From Microcaldota archaeon (GTDB taxonomy: Archaea; Micrarchaeota; Micrarchaeia; Micrarchaeales; CABMGC01): DNA of 17,174 nucleotides. The notes under the pieces are model-generated. The model did no database searches and was not told the origin of the DNA. It saw only the letters and a program-made list of their open reading frames with translations. Below are positions 6,089-6,337 of this stretch, in pieces; position 1 is the first letter of the stretch, and each line of letters starts with the position of its first letter. The DNA lies in assembly GCA_021835105.1 (NCBI GenBank), contig JAKBQS010000014.1:1-17174 (forward strand). Direction: 5' to 3'. Both the position numbers and the translations under genes were made by a program.

Positions 6089-6175
6089 GAAAAGCCCTAT
6101 TGTAACTGCCCTTACGAAATCATCAAACTTCAGAAGCTCACCATGCTATGCGGAAATGATAATCTGACAGCAATA

Positions 6176-6190
6176 TTAATTAATAAAACT
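6176..6190 (+). promoter_or_regulatory. A/T-rich promoter region before the tRNA gene (and divergent glycosyltransferase)
   Basis: The 119-base gap between the divergent glycosyltransferase start and the tRNA is A/T rich around 6172-6190 (TTAATTAATAAAA). On the + strand it is centred about 25 bases before the tRNA 5' end, where box A of an archaeal tRNA promoter is expected. On the minus strand ACAAAG followed by TTTTATTAATTA offers a BRE/TATA for the glycosyltransferase. Confidence 0.5.
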
Positions 6191-6239
6191 TTGTAATATA
6201 TCTGTGCGCCGGGATGGCAGAACCAGGTAAATGCGCCAG

Positions 6240-6253
6240 AAAAAACAGGCGAA
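6240..6253 (+). other. 14-nt tRNA intron in the anticodon arm
   Basis: Between CCAG (6236-6239) and ACTCGAGA (6254-6261) lie 14 extra bases. Removing them restores a 5-bp anticodon stem and a 7-base loop with U33 and CGA. Boundaries are ambiguous by one base: 6240-6253 and 6241-6254 give the same product, and 6242-6255 would give A32. The 6240-6253 choice places a 4-bp helix CGCC (6234-6237) with GGCG (6248-6251) flanked by AG/A and AA/A, with cuts after the second bulge base at position 30/31. There is almost no outer helix and the inner side is only a loop, so this is a relaxed bulge-helix-loop type, not a canonical motif. Confidence 0.75.
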
Positions 6254-6291
6254 ACTCGAGATCTGGTGGCCTTTGGCTTTCTGGGTTCAAA

Positions 6292-6315
6292 ATGCATCGA
6301 GAAGATGCATGAATC
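6292..6315 (+). other. 24-nt tRNA intron in the T loop (position 59/60), canonical BHB
   Basis: The T stem CTGGG/CCCAG (6281-6285/6317-6321) encloses a complete bulge-helix-bulge. Central 4-bp helix TTCA (6286-6289) with TGAA (6310-6313), 3-base bulge AAA (6290-6292) on one strand, 3-base bulge TCT (6314-6316) on the other, and inner hairpin TGCATC/GATGCA (6293-6298/6304-6309) with a GAGAA loop. The known cutting rule (between second and third bulge bases) removes 6292-6315 and joins TTCAAA to T, which is exactly the 7-base T loop TTCAAAT. Confidence 0.9.
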
Positions 6316-6337
6316 TCCCAGTCCCGGCGTATCAAGC

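Follow-up and report, generated by a model that had tools for sequence, protein, structure and literature searches.

A tRNA-Ser(CGA) gene of Micrarchaeota interrupted by introns at positions 30/31 and 59/60, and its predicted splicing

Introduction

Archaeal tRNA genes with more than one intron have been described before, and the closest cases are in Micrarchaeota, where a table row on multiple-intron tRNAs in the available part of PMC4033280 includes ARMAN-1 and ARMAN-2. Broad-specificity splicing enzymes and relaxed splice motifs, including the bulge-helix-loop form (a helix with one bulge, the second bulge being replaced by a loop), are described in the accessible text of PMC6379350. For the three-unit endonuclease of ARMAN-2 (PDB 4fz2 and 9w2k), the residues Tyr160-Lys161 have been linked to holding of the RNA for cutting, according to an excerpt of PMC12397907. 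Because ARMAN-1 and ARMAN-2 are listed in PMC4033280 and PMC6379350 describes the enzymes and motifs, this kind of gene and its mechanism are already known in Micrarchaeota. A second point of comparison is provided by the Thermoproteales, in which excerpts of PMC4033280 and PMC8450103 report tRNAs with two or three introns, many non-canonical sites and a broad-specificity endonuclease; large-scale intron transposition is also reported for that lineage.

The gene considered here lies in the window, which is the whole stretch of 17,174 nucleotides that was analysed. It is like the multiple-intron tRNAs of ARMAN-1 and ARMAN-2 in phylum, in having more than one intron and in the type of endonuclease, whereas its isoacceptor, Ser(CGA), and its pair of sites, 30/31 with 59/60, do not appear in the cited portion of PMC4033280. 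The Thermoproteales tRNAs share with it the multiple introns, the non-canonical sites and the broad-specificity enzyme, but belong to another lineage with another endonuclease subunit plan. What is added here is the isoacceptor, its site pair, its occurrence across one family and the empty sites that exist naturally in relatives. Among the titles and abstract openings listed in literature searches, none names this tRNA-Ser(CGA) gene, and no claim is made that it is unpublished.

Gene organisation

The preliminary description had read the locus as a tRNA-Ser(CGA) gene interrupted twice, by 14 nt within the anticodon arm and by 24 nt within the T loop, and this is borne out by the sequence, by stem pairing and by ARAGORN on the spliced form (Table 1). 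The listed elements of the spliced product, namely a 7-bp acceptor, the CTCGAGA loop, a 4-bp variable arm, the TTCAAAT loop and a discriminator G, and its length were likewise found as described. With both insertions removed, the acceptor (GCCGGGA/TCCCGGC) pairs at 7/7 positions, the D stem at 3/3, the anticodon stem (CCAGA/TCTGG) at 5/5 and the T stem (CTGGG/CCCAG) at 5/5, and one of the variable-arm pairs is G-U. The spliced form is a type II tRNA-Ser, with a cloverleaf, a long variable arm, a serine anticodon and the discriminator G. A covariance model scored the gene at 121 bits (E 8e-29), a value that is not independent of the window since the model was built from 25 family genes including this one, and gave no other credible match within the window.

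Table 1. Positions of the tRNA-Ser(CGA) gene and its parts in the window; G027 is the nearest genome
Feature	Position	Strand	Remarks
Whole gene, tRNA-Ser(CGA)	6208-6329	+	122 bp; spliced product 84 nt
Exon 1	6208..6239	+	Acceptor 5' strand, D arm, positions 26-30; 32/32 bases as in G027
Intron 1, 14 nt, tRNA position 30/31	6240..6253	+	Empty site in five relatives
Exon 2	6254..6291	+	Position 31, anticodon loop, anticodon stem 3' strand, variable arm, T stem 5' strand, T loop to 59
Anticodon CGA	6257-6259	+	Within exon 2, loop CTCGAGA
Intron 2, 24 nt, T loop position 59/60	6292..6315	+	T loops without intron in relatives
Intron 2 inner stem	TGCATC 6293-6298 with GATGCA 6304-6309	+	6 bp
Exon 3	6316..6329	+	T loop end, T stem and acceptor 3' strands, discriminator G
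Intron 1 central helix, exon strand CGCC	6234..6237	+	tRNA positions 25-28; pairs with 6248-6251
Intron 1 central helix, intron strand GGCG	6248..6251	+	Partner of 6234-6237
Intron 2 central helix, exon strand TTCA	6286..6289	+	Pairs with 6310-6313
Intron 2 central helix, intron strand TGAA	6310..6313	+	Partner of 6286-6289
A+T-rich upstream stretch, candidate BoxA/TATA	6173..6182	+	-35 to -26 from gene start

Intron borders and splice motifs

Borders and motifs were compared across 33 double-intron genes, comprising the window gene and 32 relatives, which were collected by a parser requiring all acceptor and T-stem pairs to be intact. Intron 1 is 11-15 nt long in these genes and intron 2 is 14-45 nt long. 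That neither intron lies at the 37/38 site, as had been proposed, is confirmed, and the sites 30/31 and 59/60 are fixed by relatives. Five relatives (L255, L257, L258, L269 and L271) carry a natural empty site for intron 1, CGCCAG-ACTCGAGATCTGG, identical to the join that splicing is predicted to give in the window; a sixth relative without intron 1, L261, has a different stem sequence. A run of A makes the borders 30/31 and 31/32 equivalent in the window sequence. The former is preferred because in six of the 33 double-intron genes intron 1 begins with T (five genes) or C (one gene), and these introns restore the A31-U39 pair only in that register; read by eye, the same register gives intron 1 of L171 a 4-bp inner stem. 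Intron 2 is preceded by exon TTCAAA and followed by T, and relatives lacking it (six family genes and 11 further genes from a phylum search) show intact TTCAAAT or TTCGAAT T loops.

In the window, intron 2 forms a full bulge-helix-bulge (BHB) in the strict sense of two 3-nt bulges, a 4-bp helix and flanking helices. All four central pairs of TTCA with TGAA are present, the bulges are AA/A and TC/T (slash at the intron border), and the inner stem and the T stem provide the flanking helices. Across the family set, TTCA is fully paired with TGAA, TGGA or TGAG in 30/33 genes and imperfectly in three, which compares with 0-1/33 when the partner is slid by 1-3 bases and with at most 4/33 for shuffled introns (2000 rounds). 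The inner stem of intron 2 ranges from 0 to 12 pairs in the other genes by simple count.

The central helix of intron 1, CGCC with GGCG, is present in 33/33 genes, in 0/33 when slid and in at most 2/33 with shuffled introns (2000 rounds). A strict BHB is not formed by intron 1 in the window, where the central helix has 4/4 pairs and the inner stem has none. Since the inner stem has 0-2 pairs across the 33 genes, intron 1 is assigned to the relaxed bulge-helix-loop type, with the helix, a 3'-side bulge AA/A and a loop in place of the inner stem. Both strands of the helix are invariant (33/33), so that its support is conservation and not covariation: the pairing consists of conserved letters inside an otherwise variable intron.

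Distribution among relatives

The archaeal lineage suggested in the preliminary description is supported, as the closest relatives among the matches listed are Micrarchaeota. The SAM synthetase encoded in the window has Micrarchaeota as its closest relatives among the best 80 matches listed, with a top identity of 71%; matches L001-L033 from this search comprise 27 Micrarchaeota/Micrarchaeum, five Marsarchaeota and one Mancarchaeum among those listed. The nearest genome, G027, is 83.9% identical over a colinear stretch of 16.2 kb that includes the tRNA gene.

BLAST with the 122-bp gene against 59 genomes of one Micrarchaeota family matched 39 of them, at a single place each (E <=1e-4). Both introns are present in 32 of these genes and intron 1 only in six (L118, L171, L172, L174, L175 and L176), while the remaining gene (L173) is truncated beyond intron 1 where its contig stops; these last seven were read by eye and not parsed by script. 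Weak matches (L084-L090) and a Ser(GGA) gene (L083) were left out of the Ser(CGA) counts. Given 32 double-intron genes among 39 in a single family, Ser(GGA) genes that can have two introns and the ARMAN-1 and ARMAN-2 entries in the part of PMC4033280 cited above, the rarity first attributed to two introns in one tRNA was overstated.

Twenty family genomes gave no BLAST match. Among these, G035 has an intron-free tRNA-Ser(CGA) (L255). In G004 the doubly interrupted Ser(CGA) was not found by BLAST, and a different tRNA-Ser(CGA) bearing an anticodon-loop intron is present (L235). No Ser(CGA) was seen in G002 among four of the five matches to the family model R1 that were examined, or in Micrarchaeum sp. 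A_DKE (G005) among its seven R1 matches, all of which were read. The pattern GGCGARACTCGAG matched G002 at a place that is no tRNA and was discarded.

A model search of 146 phylum genomes added 14 new loci, all 14 with intron 1, of which three have both introns and 11 have intron 1 only. A further 20 matches, picked by length, comprise four intron-free Ser(CGA) genes (L255, L257, L258 and L261), two Ser(CGA) genes with intron 2 only (L269 and L271), ten intron-free Ser(TGA) genes and four Ser(GGA) genes with one or two introns. Four intron states are therefore present among the Ser(CGA) genes of relatives, namely both, first only, second only and neither. The phylum counts are of loci read and are not phylum frequencies, because the listing ran from the best match downwards and the 20 further matches were a selected set. 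The model matched 141 of the 146 phylum genomes, a figure that includes other Ser and Leu tRNAs and so does not count tRNA-Ser(CGA).

Copy number, EndA and RtcB were read from relatives, whose genomes are mostly multi-contig, and not from the window's own genome. A second tRNA-Ser(CGA) was not found in G027, which has a single BLAST match. Of its 40 RF00005 matches, two are pieces of 21 nt, and the 38 that were read include no second Ser(CGA); the family model gave one CGA gene among eight matches.

Conservation

Between the window and G027, 0/84 exon bases, 0/14 bases of intron 1 and 3/24 bases of intron 2 differ, and the 60 bases upstream of the gene are nearly identical. The 33 genes comprise 24 distinct mature sequences, 28 distinct first introns and 32 distinct second introns. 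In an alignment (A3) of 25 of them, 97.2% of stem cells are paired and eight pairs have both sides changed, compared with 21.6-50.4% paired and at most one pair changed on both sides in slid-stem controls. The eight genes omitted from A3 (L091, L094, L098, L100, L105, L111, L113 and L115) are mostly near copies, and L105 was omitted needlessly. One D-stem pair (A3 columns 12 and 25, mostly A with C) is nonstandard in 15/25 genes and forms in the window; both its neighbour pairs are invariant. Upstream, positions -35 to -26 are 79-100% A/T in the 33 genes, reaching 100% at -29, and this stretch is a candidate archaeal BoxA/TATA element.

Splicing machinery

The preliminary description had also pointed to a broad-specificity splicing endonuclease. 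Support for this type comes through G027, whose EndA is ARMAN-2-like in sequence and keeps the Tyr-Lys of the ARMAN-specific loop, at the Tyr160-Lys161 place (positions counted by eye). It aligns with residues 5-387 (383 residues) of the 395-residue ARMAN-2 chain (4fz2) at E 7e-153 and is of the epsilon2 (ARMAN) type, with a single chain, three units and the loop lysine. In contrast to the ARMAN-2 endonuclease, the G027 enzyme is a predicted endonuclease; its open frame has 435 codons with the match beginning at codon 53, and the start is uncertain.

Matches to PF01974 (EndA) were found in 55/59 family genomes, and 52 of the 55 have at least two, generally side by side within a single open frame of 339-580 codons. 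EndA was not matched in G009, G045, G051 and G048, all multi-contig assemblies judging by contig numbers; the first three have the double-intron gene and G048 has intron 1 only. RtcB, the archaeal tRNA ligase, was found in 5/5 genomes tested.

Detection by tRNA search tools

The unmodified window gave no ARAGORN tRNA in any mode tried and no RF00005 match at E <=1. Once both insertions had been taken out, ARAGORN called tRNA-Ser(cga) in each of its two modes. Removal of intron 2 by itself gave a call in intron mode alone, with a 14-nt intron reported, whereas there was no call if intron 1 by itself or nothing was removed. Over the 33 double-intron genes, ARAGORN found 0/33 unspliced, with or without the intron option, and 33/33 spliced. 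A search of the whole G027 genome with RF00005 at E <=10 missed the double-intron gene, and in a matched test at E <=1 the same model found 4/4 intron-free, 4/4 single-intron and 0/4 double-intron genes. The expectation that search tools would miss the gene thus holds for ARAGORN and for Rfam RF00005. tRNAscan-SE in archaeal mode may well find it, because since version 2.0 that program has BHB models and handles genes with two or three introns, as stated in the accessible part of PMC8450103.

Three other matches in the window were set aside. A loose tRNA finder match at 1088-1307 (220 nt) is too long, is without a tRNA core and runs into the final part of an open frame, and two sub-threshold lncRNA matches in the Rfam scan were judged to be chance.

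Other interrupted tRNA genes in the lineage

Insertions were also seen in other tRNA genes of these genomes. Two introns, in the anticodon loop region and the T loop, are present in tRNA-Ser(GGA) genes (L083, L017, L238, L267 and L270). T-loop insertions occur in Arg-, Leu-, Ala- and Cys-like genes (L004 3921-4037, L165, L160, L163, L276 and L277; anticodons read by eye), and tRNA-Leu(TAA) of G005 and G002 (L251 and L252) has an insertion in the D loop region.

In tRNA-Ser(TGA) of four genomes (G027, G021, G004 and G002), an anticodon-loop intron contains CTCAAGAG-CTGA, followed 4-7 bases on by TGATG. The loci are L240 (4-124), L244, L239 and L242, together with L235, which is a Ser(CGA); G005 has a one-letter variant of the motif (L241). 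By eye, L235 (G004:C4:5627-5754) looks like a copy of the Ser(TGA) gene of G004, including the intron, with one anticodon base changed. The motif looks like a D'/C' box pair whose putative antisense part matches the anticodon loop. With the D+5 rule, which we take to place the methylation at U34 of tRNA-Ser(TGA), the intron would guide 2'-O-methylation of that base in cis. A tRNA-Trp intron has been reported as a guide acting in cis (PMC7994747, in excerpt).

Discussion

Comparison of the sequences indicates that this is almost certainly a working tRNA-Ser(CGA) gene of Micrarchaeota, with one precursor whose two introns would be cut by an ARMAN-type EndA and whose exons would be joined by RtcB; the gene is real and probably functional. 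The anatomy and conservation of the gene, the covariation of its stems, the natural empty sites and the enzyme genes in relatives are observed, and from these we infer transcription, cutting, joining and aminoacylation. Both introns would be transcribed within a single precursor, in which the three-unit endonuclease would cut intron 2 at the complete BHB and intron 1 at the reduced motif. Ligation by RtcB would then yield the 84-nt product, which would read UCG. As long as intron 1 is present, its helix would compete with the D and anticodon stems for bases and, because it uses these bases, the mature fold should require removal of intron 1.

Intron 1 might be kept for a job, such as keeping the anticodon arm from being folded or modified before the intron is excised, rather than being a neutral passenger. 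Its presence in 39/39 family matches, with intron 2 missing from 6/38 complete ones, would fit such a role, as would the letters GGCGAA at its end in 32/33 double-intron genes (the exception ends in AG). However, the conserved letters are those that the splice motif itself requires, while the loop varies; moreover, at least six relatives are without intron 1, and no guide-like box was seen in it by eye. A job for intron 1 is unlikely. It is something of a long shot that intron 1 is an old, purposely kept switch, with UCG-decoder supply subject to a checkpoint at splicing and intron 2 having come and gone independently; the intron 1 helix would then borrow positions 25-28, so that the D and anticodon stems could not both form before the endonuclease acts.

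It is very improbable that the locus is a pseudogene or remnant, in which insertions piled up in a dead copy while decoding falls to an intact tRNA-Ser(CGA) at another locus. The different, by eye Ser(TGA)-like, tRNA-Ser(CGA) of G004 (L235) would suit this explanation, but the exons are unchanged at 84/84 bases between genomes that are 84% identical over 16 kb. In addition, every acceptor and T-stem pair is intact in the 32 family genomes that have both introns, as the parser required, and compensatory changes are seen in the 25 aligned genes. Each of the 39 matched family genomes has a single match (E <=1e-4), and no other Ser(CGA) was seen among the G027 matches read. A mature tRNA that keeps one or both insertions, with a lengthened T loop or anticodon arm, is scarcely credible. 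Folding of the unspliced RNA (6210-6330) is somewhat better than that of shuffled sequences (z -2.58, 2/200 at least as good) and intron 2 is by itself able to form a hairpin, but the anticodon stem would be broken by a retained intron 1, both introns show splice-motif pairing at the exact register with variable lengths, intron-free relatives read as the joins, and the EndA gene is present in G027.

Because RF00005 found none of the four double-intron copies, scans of the Rfam kind have a blind spot here, and tRNA counts of such archaeal genomes taken from them can be too low. The gene also offers a clear-cut comparison for two tRNA introns in which all four states occur among relatives, so that the exon borders can be read directly rather than predicted.
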